NCBI RefSeq assembly: GCF_003097495.1
Contig: NZ_QEOP01000001.1
Location: 744,001 to 808,000 of the forward strand
Direction of reading: 5' to 3'
DNA: 64,000 nucleotides
DNA from: Amnibacterium flavum
GTDB taxonomy: Bacteria > Actinomycetota > Actinomycetes > Actinomycetales > Microbacteriaceae
Shown: piece by piece, positions 27,389 through 48,588 of the stretch
How positions within the stretch are numbered: the stretch's first letter is position 1
Layout: each line of letters begins with the position of its first letter
Notes under the pieces: generated by a model
Databases searched by the model: none
Told to the model about the DNA's origin: nothing
Seen by the model: only the letters and a program-made list of their open reading frames with translations
Translations under genes and position numbers: made by a program

Positions 27389-27784
27389 ATGGCGCGGTTC
27401 TGGGTCGTCGCTGCGGTCGTCGCGGTGGCCTTCATGGTGTACTCGCTGGTCGACTGCGCGATGACGGACAAGGCGCGAGTCCGCGGGCCGCGCAAGGGCG
27501 TCTGGCTGCTGCTCATCCTCGTCCTCCCCGTCATCGGTGCGGTCCTCTGGTTCGTCATCGGCCGCGGACGACCCACCAAGACCACGGGTCGTGCGCCGCT
27601 TCGTCCGGTCGCTCCCGACGACGATCCGGCCTTCCTCGCCCGGCTCGCGCGCGACGCCGATCAGGAGGAGCGGATCCGTCGACTCGAGGAGGAGCTCTCC
27701 GCGCTCGAGTCCGACCCCGACGCGGACCCCGACGGCAAAGACGGTACAGACGGCACTGGCGGCGCCGGTCGCCGCGATGGCTGA
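27389..27784 (+). CDS. PLDc_N-domain small membrane protein
   Basis: A 131-residue protein. Two hydrophobic segments (about residues 3-22 and 38-56) flank a short loop with DCAMTDKARVRGPRKGVW, as in the phospholipase D N-terminal-like domain family; no HKD catalytic motif is present. The C-terminal half is charged and likely helical, with EERIRRLEEELSALE suggesting a coiled coil. It overlaps the menD start by eight bases and so is translated with it. Role in the locus unknown. Confidence 0.75.
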   Translation: MARFWVVAAVVAVAFMVYSLVDCAMTDKARVRGPRKGVWLLLILVLPVIGAVLWFVIGRGRPTKTTGRAPLRPVAPDDDPAFLARLARDADQEERIRRLEEELSALESDPDADPDGKDGTDGTGGAGRRDG

Positions 27785-29474
27785 GGCCACCGGCCCGGCG
27801 AGCGAGTTCGCCAGCGCATTCATCCGCCGCCTGGCCGCACGAGGGGTCCGGCATATCGTCGTCAGTCCGGGCTCGCGCTCACAGGCACTCGCGCTCGCCG
27901 CGGCTCGCGCTCACGCCGACGGCCTCATCCGGATCCACGTGCGCATCGACGAGCGCTCGGCGGGCTTCCTCGCGCTGGGATTGAGCCGATCCGCGCGCAC
28001 CCCGGTCGCCATCGTCACCACTTCGGGAACCGCGGTCGCCAACCTGCATCCGGCGATGCTCGAGGCCTGGCATTCCGGCGACCCGCTGATCGCGGTGACC
28101 GCTGATCGACCCGCCTCGTTGCGCGGGCGCGGTGCCAACCAGACCACCACCCAACCCGAGATATTCGGTCCTGCCGCGACCTGGCAGCTCGATGTCGTGC
28201 CCCCGACCGGCGCCGACGACGAACTCGAGATCGCGCGGCGGGTGGCCGACGATGCGGTCACCGCCGCCATGATCGGGGCGATCCGCCCGTCGCCGGTCCA
28301 CGTGAACCTGCAGTTCACGGAGCCGCTGTCGGGGCCGGTGACCCCGCTGCCCGACGATGCCGCCCCGTTCGATATCAGCGCCTCCTTCGGGCCGCCCCTC
28401 CGGGTCGAGCGCGGCCTGCGAACCGTCGTGATCGCCGGCACGGGGGCGGGGCCCGTCGCGGAGCAGTTCGCGCGATCGGCGGGTTGGCCCCTGCTCGCCG
28501 AGGTCACCAGCAGTGCCCGCTTCGGGCCGAATCTGGTCCGCGCCTACCGTCAGGTGCTGTCCGGAAGCGGGCTCGCCGACGAGGTCGAGCGGGTGGTCGT
28601 CTTCGGCCGGCCGAACCTGAGTCGCGAGGTGCCCGCCCTGCTGGCACGGCCCGGGATTGAGACGATCCTGGTGCGTTCATCCGGTGCCGAGCAGTTCGAT
28701 CCCACCGGCTCGGCGATCCAGGTCGACGCTGCAGAGGCCCCGGAGGCGCCCGATGACTCCGCCGTCGCCGCACGCGAGAAGGACTGGCTGGACGCCTGGT
28801 ACTTCACCGGCCGACAGCTCGCCGAGGACGACGACGAACCGGCCTGGATCGGGGGCAGCGGGGTGTCCACCGCGGCCGAACGGAGCAGGCTGGTGCGGGC
28901 CGAGCTCAGCGCGGTGCGCTCAGCGGTTTCGCGGCGGGCCCTCGTCGACGCGGTGTGGCGGGCGACGTGGCCGCACGACCGGCTCTGGTTCGCCGCATCC
29001 CGGTTGGTCCGGGTCGCGGATGCTGCGGTGCCGGGTAAGAAGATCGCGGTGCAGGCCAGCCGCGGTCTCGCCGGCATCGACGGCACGATCTCGTCGGCCT
29101 TCGGTTTCGCGCTCGCGGCGGCGGACGACCCTCGCGGGGCGGCCGGCACGACGAGGGTGCTCCTCGGGGATCTGGCTTTCCTGCACGACGTCGGCGGGCT
29201 GCTGCTCCCGCCTGGCGAATCCCGCCCGCGGATCCAGCTCGTCGTCGGCAACGACGGGGGCGGGTCCATCTTCGACGGTCTCGAGGTGGCGGCGGATGCC
29301 GATCCAGACGCGTTCGACCGAGTGATGTACACGCCTCACTCCGTCGATATCGAGGGCATCGCCGGCGCGTACGGGTGGGAGTTCACGCGCGCGGCGACCC
29401 GCGGAGACCTCGACCGCGCGCTCACGGCGCCCGCGATGGGACCGAGCGTCGTGGAAGTCCCGCTCGACCGCTGA
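27777..29474 (+). CDS. menD: SEPHCHC synthase
   Basis: A 565-residue thiamine-diphosphate enzyme joining isochorismate and 2-oxoglutarate, the first committed step of menaquinone synthesis. The N-terminal signature HIVVSPGSRSQALALAA and Glu in IDERSAGFLALG are typical; the thiamine site is around GTISSAFGFALAA and LGDLAFLHD with VVGNDGGGSIFDGLE. The ATG at 27777 overlaps the previous gene. Its last 24 codons are repeated, with six base changes, 1,254 bases downstream, suggesting an insertion at its 3' end. Confidence 0.96.
   Translation: MAEATGPASEFASAFIRRLAARGVRHIVVSPGSRSQALALAAARAHADGLIRIHVRIDERSAGFLALGLSRSARTPVAIVTTSGTAVANLHPAMLEAWHSGDPLIAVTADRPASLRGRGANQTTTQPEIFGPAATWQLDVVPPTGADDELEIARRVADDAVTAAMIGAIRPSPVHVNLQFTEPLSGPVTPLPDDAAPFDISASFGPPLRVERGLRTVVIAGTGAGPVAEQFARSAGWPLLAEVTSSARFGPNLVRAYRQVLSGSGLADEVERVVVFGRPNLSREVPALLARPGIETILVRSSGAEQFDPTGSAIQVDAAEAPEAPDDSAVAAREKDWLDAWYFTGRQLAEDDDEPAWIGGSGVSTAAERSRLVRAELSAVRSAVSRRALVDAVWRATWPHDRLWFAASRLVRVADAAVPGKKIAVQASRGLAGIDGTISSAFGFALAAADDPRGAAGTTRVLLGDLAFLHDVGGLLLPPGESRPRIQLVVGNDGGGSIFDGLEVAADADPDAFDRVMYTPHSVDIEGIAGAYGWEFTRAATRGDLDRALTAPAMGPSVVEVPLDR
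29403..29474 (+). repeat. menD: menD 3' tail, copy 1 (in menD)
   Basis: The last 24 codons of menD including the stop. The peptide starts GDLDRALTAPAMGPS. It matches copy 2 at 30657-30728 in 66 of 72 positions; all but one change leave the protein unaltered, as expected from two diverged menD alleles. Confidence 0.85.
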
Positions 29475-29701
29475 CCCGGTGGGTCCATCCGGGGCGGGTG
29501 CGAGCGATGCGCGCCCGCGCGGCGGCGGTGTGTTGGATGACGAGGCTCCCGCTCCTGCAGCCGCAGTGAAGACCGACCTACAAGACGACGAGCAATCCGT
29601 CAAGCCCATGCGGGCGGAGGGGTCGCTGTACGTACGATCGGACCGTCGCCGGTGGAGGTGATCCGGTGCCGGCGATGCCGACCGAGCGAGGGAGAGCGAA
29701 G

Positions 29702-29796
29702 ATGGCAACCCAGGTGCGCACGGCGCTTCTCGTTCGTCTGAAGTCGAAGAAGTCGATGTCGTCACCGAGCAGCAGCCGACTCAGGGGAGCTGCGGG
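29702..29796 (+). pseudogene. Remnant of an antibiotic-biosynthesis-monooxygenase-like gene
   Basis: After a GAGGGAGA ribosome site, ATG begins MATQVRTALLVRLK, which resembles the start of ABM/quinol monooxygenase-like proteins of about 100 residues. The frame then changes: VEEVDVVTEQQP in another frame resembles the usual end of such proteins. The middle, about 70 residues, would be missing. The open 32-codon frame ends at 29800, sharing ATGA with the aldo/keto reductase. The similarity is from memory and short, so confidence is limited. Confidence 0.35.
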
Positions 29797-30645
29797 ATGA
29801 CCGCGATGGAGCACCGCCCCTTCGGTCGCCTTCCTGTGGACGTCTCCGTCATCGGGCAGGGCACCTGGTACATCGACGCCGCGCACCGACCGACGGCCGT
29901 CGATTCTCTGCGCCACGGGATCGACAGCGGCATGATGCACATCGATACCGCCGAGATGTACGGCGACGCCGAGCTGGTGGTCGGCGAGGCCATCGCCGGA
30001 CGGCGGGATGAGGTCTTCCTCGTTTCGAAGGTTCTACCGAGCAACGCCTCGCGTGCCGGAGTGGTGGCGGCGTGCGAGCGCACGCTGACGCGCTTGGGCA
30101 CCGACAGGCTGGACTGCTACCTCTTGCATTGGCGCGGTTCCTACCCACTGGAGGAGACTTTCGCCGGCTTCGAGCAGCTGCGCGAGCAGGGCAAGATCCG
30201 GTCGTGGGGCGTGAGCAACTTCGACGTCGACGATCTGGAGGAAGCCTGGAGGTCGGGCGGGGAGGGGCGCCTCGCCTGCAATCAGGTGCTCTATCACCTG
30301 AAGGAGCGCGCGATCGAGCACGCCGTGCTCCCGTGGTGCGAGCGGCGTGGCGTCGCCGTCGTCGCGTACAGCCCCTTCGGGCACGACGACTTCCCCGGAC
30401 CGCGGACGCCGGGTGGCCGAGTGCTGGAGGAGATCGCGGCGGATCACGGCGCGAGTGCCCGGCAGGTGGCCTTGCGCTTCCTCGTGCGCCGGCCGGGTGT
30501 CTTCGCCATCCCGAAGGCGTCGACCGCTGCGCATGCCGACGAGAATGCTGGCGCGGGCTCGCTGCGACTCAGTGCCGCGGAGTGCGACCGGATCAGTGCC
30601 GCGTTCCCTCGTGGCGCTCGCCCACGCCGGCTGCCCATGCTGTGA
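29797..30645 (+). CDS. Aldo/keto reductase
   Basis: A 282-residue NADPH-dependent oxidoreductase with a TIM-barrel layout. The catalytic tetrad is visible: Asp in HIDTAEMYG with Tyr, Lys in VFLVSKVLP and His in CYLLHWRG. The NADP-binding C-terminus has VFAIPKAST. Substrate not predictable. It is the only intact gene of the islet between two menD tails, so it was probably acquired with the islet. Confidence 0.92.
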   Translation: MTAMEHRPFGRLPVDVSVIGQGTWYIDAAHRPTAVDSLRHGIDSGMMHIDTAEMYGDAELVVGEAIAGRRDEVFLVSKVLPSNASRAGVVAACERTLTRLGTDRLDCYLLHWRGSYPLEETFAGFEQLREQGKIRSWGVSNFDVDDLEEAWRSGGEGRLACNQVLYHLKERAIEHAVLPWCERRGVAVVAYSPFGHDDFPGPRTPGGRVLEEIAADHGASARQVALRFLVRRPGVFAIPKASTAAHADENAGAGSLRLSAAECDRISAAFPRGARPRRLPML

Positions 30646-30656
30646 TCTCGACCAGC

Positions 30657-30728
30657 GGCGACCTCGATCGTGCGCTCGCGGCGCCTGCGATGGGACCGAG
30701 TGTCGTGGAAGTCCCGCTCGACCGCTGA
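30657..30728 (+). repeat. menD 3' tail, copy 2 (right end of islet)
   Basis: A 72-base copy of the end of menD: the peptide GDLDRALAAPAMGPS and the stop are retained, but no upstream menD reading frame is attached. Base changes relative to copy 1 are mostly C/T at third positions. Confidence 0.85.
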
Positions 30729-30820
30729 GCGGCTGTCCCGTCGAGCGAGGCGGGGCGGGGTCCGACCGAACAGGATCCGCAATTTCCCGTGACCCCGAGG
30801 ATCCAGCCCCTCGCGGCCTG

Positions 30821-31081
30821 CGTTGGAAAGAACTCCTCCTGCTCTCTTTCGCCACCAGCGTCGACGCGCTCGCAGTCGGGATCTCCTTCGCCTTCCTCGA
30901 AGTGAACTTCTGGGGGGCGGTCGCACTGATCGGGCTGACCAGCCTCGTCCTCTCAGCGGCCGCGGTGGCGATCGGCCATCGGGTCGGTGCCAGTTTCCAG
31001 CGCCCAGCCGAACTGGCTGGCGGAGTCGTGCTGATCTTTATCGGTCTGCAGGTACTTCTCGAGCATCTCGGGGTCTGGTGA
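30821..31081 (+). pseudogene. mntP: C-terminal half of manganese efflux pump MntP
   Basis: About 86 codons matching the second half of MntP (usually about 190 residues): ATSVDALAVGISFAFLEVN, then the closing helix with GGVVLIFIGLQVLLEHLG. The first three helices are absent and the region upstream has no start codon in frame with homology. The break lies 92 bases beyond the second menD tail, so the event that placed the islet probably deleted the 5' half. It is not expected to be functional. Confidence 0.75.
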
Positions 31082-31160
31082 TCGCAGCCGATCGGTGTGG
31101 CGGCGCCCCGATCGGGGCGCCGTCTGCCTAACCTGTGCTTTCACAGCCAGGGGGGCATCC

Positions 31161-31274
31161 ATGCACGCGAACGACATCTTCGGGATCACCGTGATGGTCC
31201 TCGCCTCGGTCGGCGTCGTCGCGGGGCTCGTCCGCCAGTTCGGCGCACAGCTCGCTCGACGCCGCAGCCGTTGA
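31161..31274 (+). CDS. Small single-helix membrane protein
   Basis: A 37-residue peptide with an AGGGGGGC ribosome site seven bases upstream of ATG. It starts MHANDIFG, has one hydrophobic helix (ITVMVLASVGVVAGLV) and a positively charged end (RRRSR). No family is recognised; the arrangement and ribosome site favour a real gene, but its size leaves doubt. Confidence 0.45.
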   Translation: MHANDIFGITVMVLASVGVVAGLVRQFGAQLARRRSR

Positions 31275-31293
31275 CAGGGCTTCCACTCGAAGG

Positions 31294-32583
31294 TCAGTGA
31301 CCGGCGGCGCGCTGCGGGACCGATCCGCTCCCGTCCTCGGCTGCATCGTCAGACCCACCGACCTCGGTCTCGAGTCGCTGCAGCTCGGCCTGAGCGCGGG
31401 CGGCGAACGAGCGCAGATCTGCCACGTCCGTCGCCGACGGGTTCTTGGACAGCGGATGCATGAGGCAGAAGCTGCCGATCGTCTCTCCGCTCGATGAGAG
31501 CAGGGGAATTCCGGCGTAGAACTCCATGTGGGTGAGGTCGATGAGCGGATTCGCGTTGAAGCGGTCGTCGCGGGACGTCTTCGGAACGACGAGCGGTTCC
31601 GACGCATCGATGACCGTCGCGCAGTGCGTCAGCTCCAGGGGAACGGTCAGCGGCATCTCCCGTCCGCCGTGGCCGACGTAGCGGATCCGATCCCCGTCGG
31701 CCAGCGAGACGCTGGCGATGCGCACGCCGAAGCGCTCGCGTGCCTCCGCGGTGATGCGCTCGATCTCGGTGAGGCGGCGCGCCTCCTCGAGCTCGGCGGC
31801 GCGGAGCAGTCCGCGCCAGCCGTTCGGATCGACGTCGATCGCGACGGAGTGCAGGGCGGGGTCGATTTCCGGGTCCCCTTCGAGTACTCGGGAAACCGGT
31901 CCTCCCTCGAGCGCTGCGATCACGGAACCCGCCCACCTCCGGTACATCAGCGGGGACCCGTAGCGCCTCGCCGCGTCGATGACCGGTGCGCCGAGCTCGA
32001 AGAAGTCGACATCGTCGAATCGTTCGGCGATCGCCCGGGCCGATCCGCTCAGACGGCGTGCGTGCGTCTCGGCGATGGAGCCGAGCGGGCTGTCATAGGC
32101 CGGAACCGATCGAACGGGCTGGATCCCGGCGAGGGCGATCCGGACACCGGGTCGCGTCCCCGACCTGAGGTGCTCAACCAGCGCGAGCAGGTCCCGCTCC
32201 CAGCGGGGGAGCCTCGTCAACCGGACCGCGTCGTTCATGCCGACGACGACCGCGACGGAGTCGTACGTGCTGAGATCGGTGGCGCCGAGCCACGGGACGG
32301 CAGCGGCGATGTTCATGATCTCGTCCCCGACGTAGTCGACACGGGCGCCCCTCGAGTTGCGCCGGGCCAGCTCCCCGGCGAGCCCTCCTGCCAGCGCGAG
32401 GGTGTGGGATGCGACGCCCCAGCCGTGGCAGGGGCCGTTCCCCACCAGCAGAACACGGGCAGCCGATTCGTCGCCGATGGCGACGCTCGGGGGAGTGCGC
32501 GGCCGGGGCACGTCGCTGCCCTTGGACAGCTGATAAGCGTAGAAGAGCTTCATCAGCGGACGGAGGGCTTCGTATCTTGCCAC
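31294..32583 (-). CDS. SGNH-like domain without nucleophile, fused to GAF
   Basis: A 429-residue protein. Residues about 40-230 resemble an SGNH/GDSL hydrolase: GNGPCHGWGV (48-57) stands where block I GDSxxxGxG is expected, and VVVGMNDAVRL holds the block III GxND. The block I Ser is Gly here, and the block V His is not visible (MYRRWAGSV). Residues about 262-405 form a GAF domain ending FYAGIPLLSSSGETIGSFCLMHPL. The pairing suggests a ligand-sensing protein rather than an esterase. No kinase or cyclase domain follows. A GAF-less relative lies at 39717. Confidence 0.7.
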   Translation of the reverse strand: MARYEALRPLMKLFYAYQLSKGSDVPRPRTPPSVAIGDESAARVLLVGNGPCHGWGVASHTLALAGGLAGELARRNSRGARVDYVGDEIMNIAAAVPWLGATDLSTYDSVAVVVGMNDAVRLTRLPRWERDLLALVEHLRSGTRPGVRIALAGIQPVRSVPAYDSPLGSIAETHARRLSGSARAIAERFDDVDFFELGAPVIDAARRYGSPLMYRRWAGSVIAALEGGPVSRVLEGDPEIDPALHSVAIDVDPNGWRGLLRAAELEEARRLTEIERITAEARERFGVRIASVSLADGDRIRYVGHGGREMPLTVPLELTHCATVIDASEPLVVPKTSRDDRFNANPLIDLTHMEFYAGIPLLSSSGETIGSFCLMHPLSKNPSATDVADLRSFAARAQAELQRLETEVGGSDDAAEDGSGSVPQRAAGH

Positions 32584-32707
32584 GTCACCAGTCCTTCGCT
32601 CAGTGGTGGACCCGGTGGTCTACGCAGTGAACGTAAGTGATCGTTCTTCATTCGAAGGGATGACATGCCGGACCGCGGACCTGAGGATCTGCCCGACGAG
32701 CCGCCCG

Positions 32708-33955
32708 TCAGTCGAAGGCGTCGACGACCGGACGGAACTTCATGGCCGTCTCGGCGAGCTCCGAGGCGGGCACGGATCCGGCGACGATCCCCGCGCCCGC
32801 GTAGGCGGTCAGCGTCCCGACGTCGACCTGCGCGCAACGGAGCGCGACCGCCCACTCGCCGTTGCCCTCCTCGTCGATCCAGCCGACCGGACCGGCATAG
32901 CGTCCACGATCGAACGGTTCCAGCTCGTCGATGATCGAGATCGCGGCGGCGGTCGGACTGCCCGCGACGGCAGCCGTCGGATGCGCGGCGTCGATGAGGT
33001 CGATCGAGTTGGAACTGTCCGCCAGACAGCCTTCGACATCGCTTGCGAGGTGCCAGAGATTCGGCAGCTTGAGAGCGAACGGGATCTCGCTCGCCACGAG
33101 CGACGACGTGTGCGGGGCGAACGCGCGGAGAACGCTGCGGACCGCGAAGCCGTGCTCGTCACGATCCTTCTCGCTCGTCACCAGTGCGAGGGCGGCGGCG
33201 GTGTCCTCAGCAGCGGTCGCACCGCGCGCGGTGCTCCCCGCCAGGACCCGTGCCTGCAGAGTGCCCGAGGCGACACGGACCAGCATCTCGGGGCTCGACC
33301 CGATCAGTCCGTCGACGGCGAAGGTCCAGCAATCGGGGTAGCCCATGGCGAGCTTCGCGAGCGGACCGCGCAGGTCGGCCCCCGGTGAGATGGGTGAGAC
33401 GAGATCGCGGGCGAGGACGACCTTCTCGACCTCACCCGCCTCGATGCGGCCGATGGCGTCGGCGACGGCGGATCGGTAGGCGTCGGCGCTCATCGCGCCG
33501 GGCGTGAAGCTCAGCGCCAGGTCGGAGTCATCGACGGGCGTCGCGGTCGCGGTCGCCTCGTCGGTCCCGTCGGCGGGGTCGATCGTCGTCACCCAGGTGC
33601 GGCCCCCACGGGAACCGACGACGATGCGAGGCACGATCAGTGTGCTGGTGCGGGAGGAGGACGGCGAGAAGGCGAAGGCGGCGAAGGCGACGAGACCGGT
33701 GCCGGGCAGGGAGACCGGGTCGGTCACCGTTGATGCGGCGACGGTCTCGCGCCACAGGGTCGCGGCCCGAGTGAAGCGATCCGGTCCGCTGAACTCCCAG
33801 CGCAGCGCTTCACCCCATCCGACGAAGCCCTCGCCGCGGCGGATCCAGACCAGCGGATGTGTCGATGACGTGTGCTGAAGCAGATGCTCCGCTACCGCGG
33901 GGGAGTCGACTTCGACGGTCACCGCTCTGAGCGCGAGGGCTGTGACCGTGTTCAC
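32708..33955 (-). CDS. menF: Isochorismate synthase
   Basis: A 415-residue chorismate-binding enzyme making isochorismate, the entry to menaquinone synthesis. The catalytic lysine region KVVLARDLVSP, the PTAAVAGSPTAAA loop and the final GRYAGPVGWIDEEGNGEWA block with acidic metal ligands are characteristic. No pyruvate-lyase domain is attached. It is divergent from menG, 105 bases away. The start is GTG at 33955. Confidence 0.94.
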   Translation of the reverse strand: MNTVTALALRAVTVEVDSPAVAEHLLQHTSSTHPLVWIRRGEGFVGWGEALRWEFSGPDRFTRAATLWRETVAASTVTDPVSLPGTGLVAFAAFAFSPSSSRTSTLIVPRIVVGSRGGRTWVTTIDPADGTDEATATATPVDDSDLALSFTPGAMSADAYRSAVADAIGRIEAGEVEKVVLARDLVSPISPGADLRGPLAKLAMGYPDCWTFAVDGLIGSSPEMLVRVASGTLQARVLAGSTARGATAAEDTAAALALVTSEKDRDEHGFAVRSVLRAFAPHTSSLVASEIPFALKLPNLWHLASDVEGCLADSSNSIDLIDAAHPTAAVAGSPTAAAISIIDELEPFDRGRYAGPVGWIDEEGNGEWAVALRCAQVDVGTLTAYAGAGIVAGSVPASELAETAMKFRPVVDAFD

Positions 33956-46670: not shown

Positions 46671-47657
46671 GTGGAGTGCCACAAGCCCTTCCGGCGCACG
46701 ATCCTGGAGCAACACGAGCACTTGGCGTTTCCTCACAATCCACACACCCCGCGCGGCTTCCAGCCCAGCGATGACGACGCGACAGCCGTCCCCCAGGCCC
46801 TGACCCGACGCGAGATGCGCGAGGGGCAGTCGCGCCGACGGCCCGGAGGAATCCCCAAGCGGCCGAGTCCGAGCGTGACGGGGATTCCCGCCTCCCGAGC
46901 AGCCCGACGCATCCAGGCCGAGGCTGTACGCCGACCGCTGCCACCGCGCCGCCGACGGTTCGTCGGCCCCATCGCCACGTTCGCCACCATGCTGACCGTC
47001 GCCGCGATGACCGTCGTGACCTCGGTCCCCGCCAACGCGCTCCTGACCGCCGACGACCTCCAGCAGGGCAACCTCGGAACCGTCCAGGCGCGCGGAAGCC
47101 AGACTCTGACGAGTGCCGGAGCCCAGGCGGCCGACGCCACCATCTCGCGCGACTCGTACGCGGTGACCGACGCCGAGGAGAACGCGCTCGCCAGCCGGTT
47201 CGGCAACGTCGGCACTTTCACCAACAACCCGGATGCCCCGATCCAGTGGCCGTTCGCCGTGGGTGTTCCCATCTCGTCCGGTTACGGGTACCGTCCCGAT
47301 CAGCCGGCGGGTGCCAAGCCGTTCCACGAGGGAACCGACTTCAACCCGGGCGCAGGCGCGCCGATCCAGTCGATCGCCGCGGGAGTGGTCCGGCAGGTCG
47401 TCGAGTCCGATTCCGGCCTCGGCGTGCATGTCGTCATCGAGCATGAGATCGACGGCCAGACCATGACGAGCACGTACGCTCACATGCAGTTCGGATCCGT
47501 GGCCGTCTCAGAGGGCCAGACCATCGATGTCGGCGACCGGATCGGCCTGGTCGGCAGCACCGGGCAGGCGACCGGACCGCATCTGCACCTCGAGATCCAC
47601 ATGGCCGACGGCACCGCCGTCGACCCGTACCTCTGGCTGGTCGCGCACGCCGGGTGA
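46671..47657 (+). CDS. M23 family peptidase, membrane-anchored
   Basis: 328 residues from GTG at 46671. The long N-terminal tail (about 105 residues) is cytoplasmic and rich in Arg/Pro; a single membrane helix (IATFATMLTVAAMTVVTSVP) follows. The C-terminal M23 peptidase fold has GYGYRPDQ, HEGTDFNPG and GPHLHLEIH, the zinc and catalytic site (HxxxD, HxH). It probably cuts or remodels peptidoglycan outside the cell. A shorter paralogue is 73 bases downstream; the two share WPFA-GVP and YWDxx-like segments. Confidence 0.9.
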   Translation: MECHKPFRRTILEQHEHLAFPHNPHTPRGFQPSDDDATAVPQALTRREMREGQSRRRPGGIPKRPSPSVTGIPASRAARRIQAEAVRRPLPPRRRRFVGPIATFATMLTVAAMTVVTSVPANALLTADDLQQGNLGTVQARGSQTLTSAGAQAADATISRDSYAVTDAEENALASRFGNVGTFTNNPDAPIQWPFAVGVPISSGYGYRPDQPAGAKPFHEGTDFNPGAGAPIQSIAAGVVRQVVESDSGLGVHVVIEHEIDGQTMTSTYAHMQFGSVAVSEGQTIDVGDRIGLVGSTGQATGPHLHLEIHMADGTAVDPYLWLVAHAG

Positions 47658-47730: not shown

Positions 47731-48588
47731 ATGAATCAGCATCCAACTCCCGGCACCCGACGCGAGCTCATCGAGTCAGAGCGTCTCCGCAGCGGCGCCC
47801 GGATCCGGCCGTCCGCAGCGGCGGTGATGCGGGTTTCACCGTTGTCGCGAGCATCCCGGCCGCCTGCGCCTCCTGCGAAGCGGGCTCCCCGCCGGCGCAT
47901 CCTCGCTCCGCTGACGATGCTGTTCGTGGCGGCGGTGACGATCGTCACCACGATTCCGGTCAACTCGCTCCTGACACCGGCCGACATCGCGACGGCGAAC
48001 GCCCCCGAGTCGATCGTGTCGAGACTGCCCCCGCAGGAACTGGGCGAGATCAGCGGCGGTGCCGACATCCCCATCAGCCGGGATGACTACTCGGTGACCT
48101 CGCTGCGGCAGCAGCTCCTCGCGCAGAGCGCGGGCCGGCCCACCCAGTTCGTCAACAACTCCACCGCCCCCATCCAGTGGCCGTTCGCCGCGGGTGTGCC
48201 GATGTCCGATCAGTTCGGCCCCCGAGTGCTCTGCGACACCTGCGGGGTGACCATGCACCGCGGGGTCGACTTCCTCCCCGGCCGGGGCGCGCCGATCCAG
48301 ATCATCGCCGATGGCGTCGTCCGCTACATCGAGGAGTCGGACGACGGCCTCGGCGTCCACGTCATCATCGACCATCAGATCGACGGGCAGCTCGTCTCCT
48401 CCGTGTACTGCCATATGGAGTTCGGATCGGTGGCTGTCTCGCAGGGCGAGACCGTCAAGGTAGGTCAGCTCGTGGGCACCGTAGGTGACACCGGCTTCGC
48501 GTTCGGGCCGCATCTGCATTTCGAGATCCGCCTGAACGGCACGGAGAACGTCGATCCCGTGGCGTGGCTCAACGAGCACGCCGGCTGA
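47731..48588 (+). CDS. M23 family peptidase, paralogue of the preceding gene
   Basis: A 285-residue protein with the same plan: about 55 basic N-terminal residues, a membrane helix (LTMLFVAAVTIVTTIPVNS), a linker, then the M23 domain. The zinc-site motifs are HRGVDFLPG and GPHLHFEIR. It differs from its neighbour by a CDTCG pair just before the first motif and a shorter tail. The two genes form an in-line tandem duplicate that has diverged. Confidence 0.9.
   Translation: MNQHPTPGTRRELIESERLRSGARIRPSAAAVMRVSPLSRASRPPAPPAKRAPRRRILAPLTMLFVAAVTIVTTIPVNSLLTPADIATANAPESIVSRLPPQELGEISGGADIPISRDDYSVTSLRQQLLAQSAGRPTQFVNNSTAPIQWPFAAGVPMSDQFGPRVLCDTCGVTMHRGVDFLPGRGAPIQIIADGVVRYIEESDDGLGVHVIIDHQIDGQLVSSVYCHMEFGSVAVSQGETVKVGQLVGTVGDTGFAFGPHLHFEIRLNGTENVDPVAWLNEHAG

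Follow-up and report, generated by a model that had tools for sequence, protein, structure and literature searches.

A diverged second menD tail in a patchwork of acquired DNA behind menD of Amnibacterium flavum

Results

Genes and gene remnants between menD and menF

The window analyzed here is a 64,000-nucleotide stretch of the Amnibacterium flavum genome (G000; 3.57 Mb in 13 contigs), and the comparison set consisted of eight congeners (among them G001, G002, and G004 to G008), none of them from the same species. A complete menD gene encoding a protein of 564 amino acids lies on the plus strand (27780..29474; PF02776, E 1.3e-20) and is matched in all eight congeners, mostly at 56-69% amino acid identity. 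The matches to menD in G001 and G006 are in pieces, and in G001 menD, menF, and ubiE are each matched in at least two pieces, which looks like frameshifts, perhaps from sequencing. The last 75 bases of menD (29400-29474), referred to here as tail 1, are followed on the same strand by a probable native 3' flank of the gene (29475..29495) and then by a stretch (29496..29594) that probably holds the left end of an insert and that lies outside both the flank match and the match to reductase-bearing genomes described below. Farther downstream on the plus strand are the remnant of a 102-amino acid open reading frame (ORF) with its upstream region (29595..29800), an intact gene for a 282-amino acid aldo/keto reductase (29797..30645, with an alternative start at 29806), a second menD tail that has neither start nor body (tail 2; 30649..30728) and was delimited from the direct repeat and the codon comparison, and the 3' half of mntP (30781..31081, with sure homology from 30815), which covers positions 66-152 of the 152 positions of PF02659.

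A perfect G+C-rich palindrome that resembles a terminator follows the mntP half (31101..31122). Beyond it are a small plus-strand ORF of 37 amino acids that is native to the menD-menF spacer (31161..31274), a lineage-specific minus-strand gene for a 429-amino acid protein with a GDSL-like hydrolase and a GAF domain (31294..32583; PF01590, E 2.2e-11; PF13472 below the cut-off), and the isochorismate synthase gene menF (32708..33955, minus strand), which is the native convergent neighbor. Additions to the initial annotation of this DNA are the mntP fragment that follows tail 2, the interrupted ORF ahead of the reductase gene, and the lineage-specific gene.

Two copies of the menD end

The initial annotation had reported that the last 24 codons of menD recur 1,254 bases downstream, with 66 of 72 bases matching and mostly silent differences, and this description proved exact. 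The full direct repeat (29395-29481 and 30649-30735) is 87 nucleotides long and 89% identical at a spacing of 1,254 bases, and it exceeds in length every other direct repeat found in the 64 kb window (at least 50 nucleotides, seed 16). Tails 1 and 2 differ at six positions in the last 24 codons, stop codon included, five of these differences being silent; at seven positions in the last 75 bases (68/75 agree); and at eight positions in the last 27 codons, where the five silent differences are all at third positions and two of the three replacements are at the left edge. The two copies are identical over the 27 bases that end with the stop codon and diverge directly after it. Elsewhere in the window, on either strand, ungapped alignment with the 75-base tail gives at best 42/75 matching positions, so the repeat is not due to chance. 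Tail 2 is the sole extra match to the menD tail in the organism's own genome (G000:C1:774648-774725), starts 3 bases past the reductase stop codon, and covers no more of MenD than its final 25 or 26 residues. The window holds a second diverged direct repeat (47217-47275 and 48148-48206; 59 nucleotides, 80% identical, spacing 931), which perhaps reflects neighboring paralogues.

The uninterrupted site and the extent of the insert

A single menD tail is present in all eight congeners, a second tail is present in none, and a convergent menF is located 188-679 bases past menD in every one of them. Relative to the eight congeners, therefore, DNA has been inserted behind menD, as the initial annotation had proposed for the segment with the reductase gene; the old duplication that it had offered as the alternative, which would show as two equally spaced tails throughout the genus, finds no counterpart among these genomes. 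According to a further prediction of the annotation, strains lacking the reductase would have one tail only, with the downstream flank right behind it. The single tail was found throughout, although the second part of the prediction holds only if the flank is taken to be the small ORF at 31161. The menD-menF spacer contains a small ORF of 35-44 amino acids in seven of the eight congeners, with 31161-31274 as its counterpart in the window, and in each of these seven the homology was equaled by 0 of 500 shuffles; the small ORF was not found in G008. By eye, it encodes a hydrophobic stretch and a basic end, and it has no family in Pfam or NCBIfam. The 80 bases preceding it match the spacer of G001 (1/300 shuffles as good) and have no clear match in the other seven congeners.

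Since the small ORF lies to the right of mntP in the window, the insert is located between menD and the small ORF. It extends from about 29500 to about 31120, past tail 2, and measures approximately 1.6 kb. The islet as originally drawn, from one tail to the other (29403-30728), is thus only part of the insert. The left end is probably within 29496-29594, and neither end is fixed to a single base. The GDSL/GAF gene (31294-32583) is absent at this place in all eight congeners, and its nearest relatives, at about 43-50% amino acid identity, are elsewhere. This lineage therefore has two additions, the menD-to-small-ORF stretch (about 29500-31120) and the GDSL/GAF gene. The latter has a further homologue in the same genome (C2:1121018) and matches in 161 of 299 family genomes, many of which have several.

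The reductase and its broken partner ORF

The aldo/keto reductase gene that had been reported between the two tails is intact, and its product matches PF00248 over the full length (positions 2-288 of 291, E 1.2e-54). The best solved relatives are 4xap_A and 4pmj_A (E 1.3e-74). The motifs HIDTAEMYG, VSKVLP, and LLHWRG are in place at residues 48, 76, and 109, and they bear the Asp, Tyr, Lys, and His of the catalytic tetrad of the family. The protein is presumably a soluble NAD(P)H-dependent carbonyl reductase, as predicted from its family. A comparison with the reductase of G304 revealed 53 silent and 27 replacement codons among 278, which indicates that the gene has been kept as a protein. The reductase is likely the only part of the insert that works, and menD is undamaged.

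Relatives that are 87.2-88.7% identical to the reductase were found in only four of 397 other Microbacteriaceae genomes when two candidates were scored per genome. The carriers (G304, G383, G333, and G019) comprise three genomes of genus g46 and one of genus g12. In three carriers the reductase gene and menD are on different contigs, and in the remaining one they are about 0.8 Mb apart. The congeners have short weak matches (4/8) or none (4/8). This patchy distribution points to horizontal transfer and agrees with the earlier view of the reductase gene as acquired DNA. A class-wide search at E 1e-100 gave no match among 344 other genomes, in a sparse sample in which the four known carriers were also unmatched.

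In all four carriers, the reductase gene is preceded by a match to the partner ORF. The full 102-amino acid ORF is present in G304, G333, and G019, and its start region is repeated in G383. In the window, 29595-29746 matches G304 at 80%, after which the alignment jumps 222 bases in G304; approximately 226 bases have been deleted from inside the ORF and the frame is broken (ATG at 29702, stop at 29800). The 102-amino acid protein has no match in Pfam or NCBIfam.

When 29475-32707 was compared with plasmid records, 37 matched, and the 20 best of these 37 are all in the reductase gene. The best match (77.8% over 838 bases) is to Methylobacterium radiotolerans pMRAD01, and relatives of approximately 77-78% identity are carried on Methylobacterium and Methylorubrum plasmids. 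Two phage records match short stretches of the reductase gene. On pMRAD01 the reductase relative is flanked by uvrA and a gene for a CDC48 ATPase. We rejected a phage or plasmid origin, given that among the matches listed all are in the reductase gene and that no context is common with pMRAD01.

The flanks of the two tails

Anchored at the stop codon and compared with G005, which is the nearest congener, the flank of tail 1 scored 22, with only 3/1475 random TGA flanks as good, whereas the flank of tail 2 scored 6, with 486/1475 as good. The match to G005 spans about 20 bases. When the anchored comparison was extended to all eight congeners, the flank of tail 1 was matched by 1/400 random flanks for G005, 3/400 for G006, and 11/400 for G004, and the best values for the flank of tail 2 were 12/400 for G006 and 26/400 for G007. 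In unanchored comparisons, the flank of tail 1 was not significantly similar to that of G005 (33/300 shuffles as good; 24/300 for G001), and the flank of tail 2 was ahead of that of tail 1 for G006 (4 versus 130 of 300), G001 (11 versus 24), and G008 (16 versus 205). The flank of tail 2 may therefore be menD-like too.

The close relationship of G005, which no other congener equals, and the start of the match right at the stop codon are our main grounds for taking tail 1, with moderate confidence, to be probably the native menD end and tail 2 to be an extra piece. This is the reverse of the replacement reading in the initial annotation, in which the incoming DNA had replaced the native tail with its own allele. 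A recombination switch inside menD was also considered and rejected, as identity to G005 ranges from 48 to 87% per 25 codons with no clear step at the tail.

The mntP half

The truncated mntP begins within about 50 bases of tail 2. It is 77% identical to the genome's own full-length mntP, which is 120 kb away on the same contig, and 79% identical to the mntP of G008. An alignment of 264 bases has 61 differences between the mntP half and the former, 56 between the mntP half and the latter, and 41 between the former and the latter; the mntP half diverges more from both than they do from each other and thus branches outside both. Third-position G+C is 77.3% in the mntP half versus 88.9% in the organism's own mntP. 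We found mntP near menD in none of the eight congeners and in none of 80 named menD loci within the stretches examined, some of whose flanks are far below 6 kb. Tail 1 agrees with the corresponding bases of G008 at 52/75 positions and with those of the eight congeners at 50 to 59 of 75. Tail 2 and the mntP half are therefore at different depths of divergence, and one donor at one distance hardly fits both. For this reason, and since mntP was not near menD elsewhere, we rejected the idea that tail 2 and mntP arrived as one donor segment.

Discussion

How did a second menD tail come to lie among these genes and fragments? We lean modestly toward a composite islet of approximately 1.6 kb (roughly 29500-31120) that was put together between menD and the small ORF by two or more events of illegitimate recombination, in part perhaps aided by homology. 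In the order of events that we infer, tail 1 would be the native menD end, with its native flank retained. Another member of the family would be the direct or indirect source of the reductase gene together with the partner ORF upstream of it, and this ORF would later have been destroyed by an internal deletion. Tail 2 would be a non-coding scrap of a menD end, either from a very close relative or copied from the organism's own gene, whose junction is no more than a few bases from the reductase stop codon, and the mntP half would have come from a more distant source.

Several features of the locus bear on the mechanism. A search of the whole genome for tyrosine recombinases (PF00589) revealed only two, at C2:1372637 and C1:1451965, and none near the islet (C1:773-775 kb). 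Repeats with a length of 10 bases or more form 11 direct and 21 inverted pairs between 29440 and 31180; none of these pairs joins the region of the left end (29496-29594) to that of the right end (31082-31125), and transposon ends were therefore rejected. At the junction between the reductase gene and tail 2, a few bases are shared with the reductase flank of G383 (TCGACC) and, less closely, with those of G304 and G333 (TCGGCC), not with that of G019. The lack of a nearby tyrosine recombinase and of end repeats, together with the broken ORF, the truncated mntP, and the few shared junction bases, fits illegitimate or homology-facilitated illegitimate recombination, and a site-specific element at the menD end is unlikely.

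One variant of the composite-islet reading, which we regard as possible if doubtful, is that the organism's own menD end was duplicated as filler DNA during break repair and then drifted. Tail 1 is the closest relative of tail 2 that was found, and at the five differing sites where at least six of the eight congeners have one of the two bases, tail 2 is the odd one at four and tail 1 at one. Tail 2 also has replacements at two positions that are invariant in the eight congeners, and four of the changes from tail 1 to tail 2 are C to T; a copy that drifts without coding should look like this. The silent lean of the differences speaks against such copying, since it suggests that the two copies parted while both were coding, in other words that tail 2 is a menD end from a close relative. 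Five silent differences out of six in the last 24 codons have a probability of 0.02 under random placement of the same changes, and five third positions out of eight differences over all 27 codons have a probability of 0.09. At codon 3, too, the base of the congeners is in tail 2 and not in tail 1. The data on the origin of tail 2 are too few for a choice between a relative's menD end and an own copy.

Integration at the menD end, or recombination across it, would give tail 1 and tail 2 opposite roles: tail 1 would have come with the reductase gene, and tail 2 and mntP would be what is left of the old native end. The same arrangement would result if a circle with a stretch resembling the menD tail had entered by one crossover. 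We consider this explanation unlikely. The identity of the last 27 bases and the divergence right after the stop codon do resemble attachment cores, the silent lean in the last 24 codons is in keeping with it, and the flank of tail 2 is weakly like those of G006, G007, G001, and G008 in one or other test. However, in the anchored comparison it is the flank of tail 1, and not that of tail 2, that matches G005, and tail 2 has replacements at two positions where the base is identical in all eight congeners. No tyrosine integrase was found close by, and mntP was not found near menD in the eight congeners or in the stretches of the 80 named loci.

It is also conceivable, though rather unlikely, that the junction between the convergent menD and menF serves as a landing site in the family. 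Tail 2 would then be the scar of a donor menD end that acted as an anchor, and later rounds would have left the reductase gene, the menD scrap, and the mntP scrap in series. That tail 2 is the remnant of a second, complete menD from a relative's DNA, trimmed by deletion to its tail, is improbable: the silent lean and the other losses in the islet (the partner ORF and mntP) would suit it, but the repeat begins at 30649 with no menD body before it, and the deletion must have ended 3 bases past the reductase stop codon by luck or selection.

Integrative elements that insert at the 3' ends of genes leave two copies of the gene end around the added DNA. The menD locus likewise has two gene-end copies around added DNA and an identical 27-base core, although such a core at both ends is also expected of any duplication of the menD end. 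Unlike those elements, the islet has no tyrosine integrase near it, a foreign fragment follows the second copy, and the insert extends beyond that copy.

Small variable segments between bacterial genomes offer another comparison. According to one study, these segments are not explained by site-specific recombination or transposition, and homologous or illegitimate recombination was invoked; 10-18% are flanked by repeats, most of which (66-94%) are under 30 bases (PMC2884548). The islet resembles the segments described there in being a short insert, but its repeat is 87 bases long, is diverged, and only seemingly brackets the insert. Homology-facilitated illegitimate recombination (HFIR) has been proposed for the T6SS immunity arrays of Vibrio cholerae (PMC5361080). 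Those arrays share with the islet new DNA behind a conserved gene and an orphaned 3' end downstream of the newcomer; here, by contrast, the orphan comprises 80 bases from a housekeeping gene that is also present as an intact full copy, and a foreign gene fragment follows the orphan. Foreign DNA at one site that is absent in relatives, which serves as a criterion for HFIR, is what we observed, with all eight congeners lacking the insert. Among the titles listed in our search of the literature on such insertion mechanisms and on Naasia, none is on this locus, which is not proof of absence in print.

Of 80 named loci, 40 have a menF match downstream of menD, at distances to the next such match that vary widely (9 to 5,716 bases); two of these 40 pairs are on the same strand and are perhaps paralogues. 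The menD-menF spacer may be a place that gathers genes, and the case described here would carry more weight if the same spot had collected cargo repeatedly in other species.

The islet behind menD is an ordinary horizontally acquired patchwork, and an untidier one than was first proposed, in which the double tail probably does not delimit the insert but arose as a by-product. A repeat that resembles a clean integration footprint can thus belong to a patchwork without bracketing the insert, and it is comparison of the flanks, not of the repeats, that decides which copy is old.
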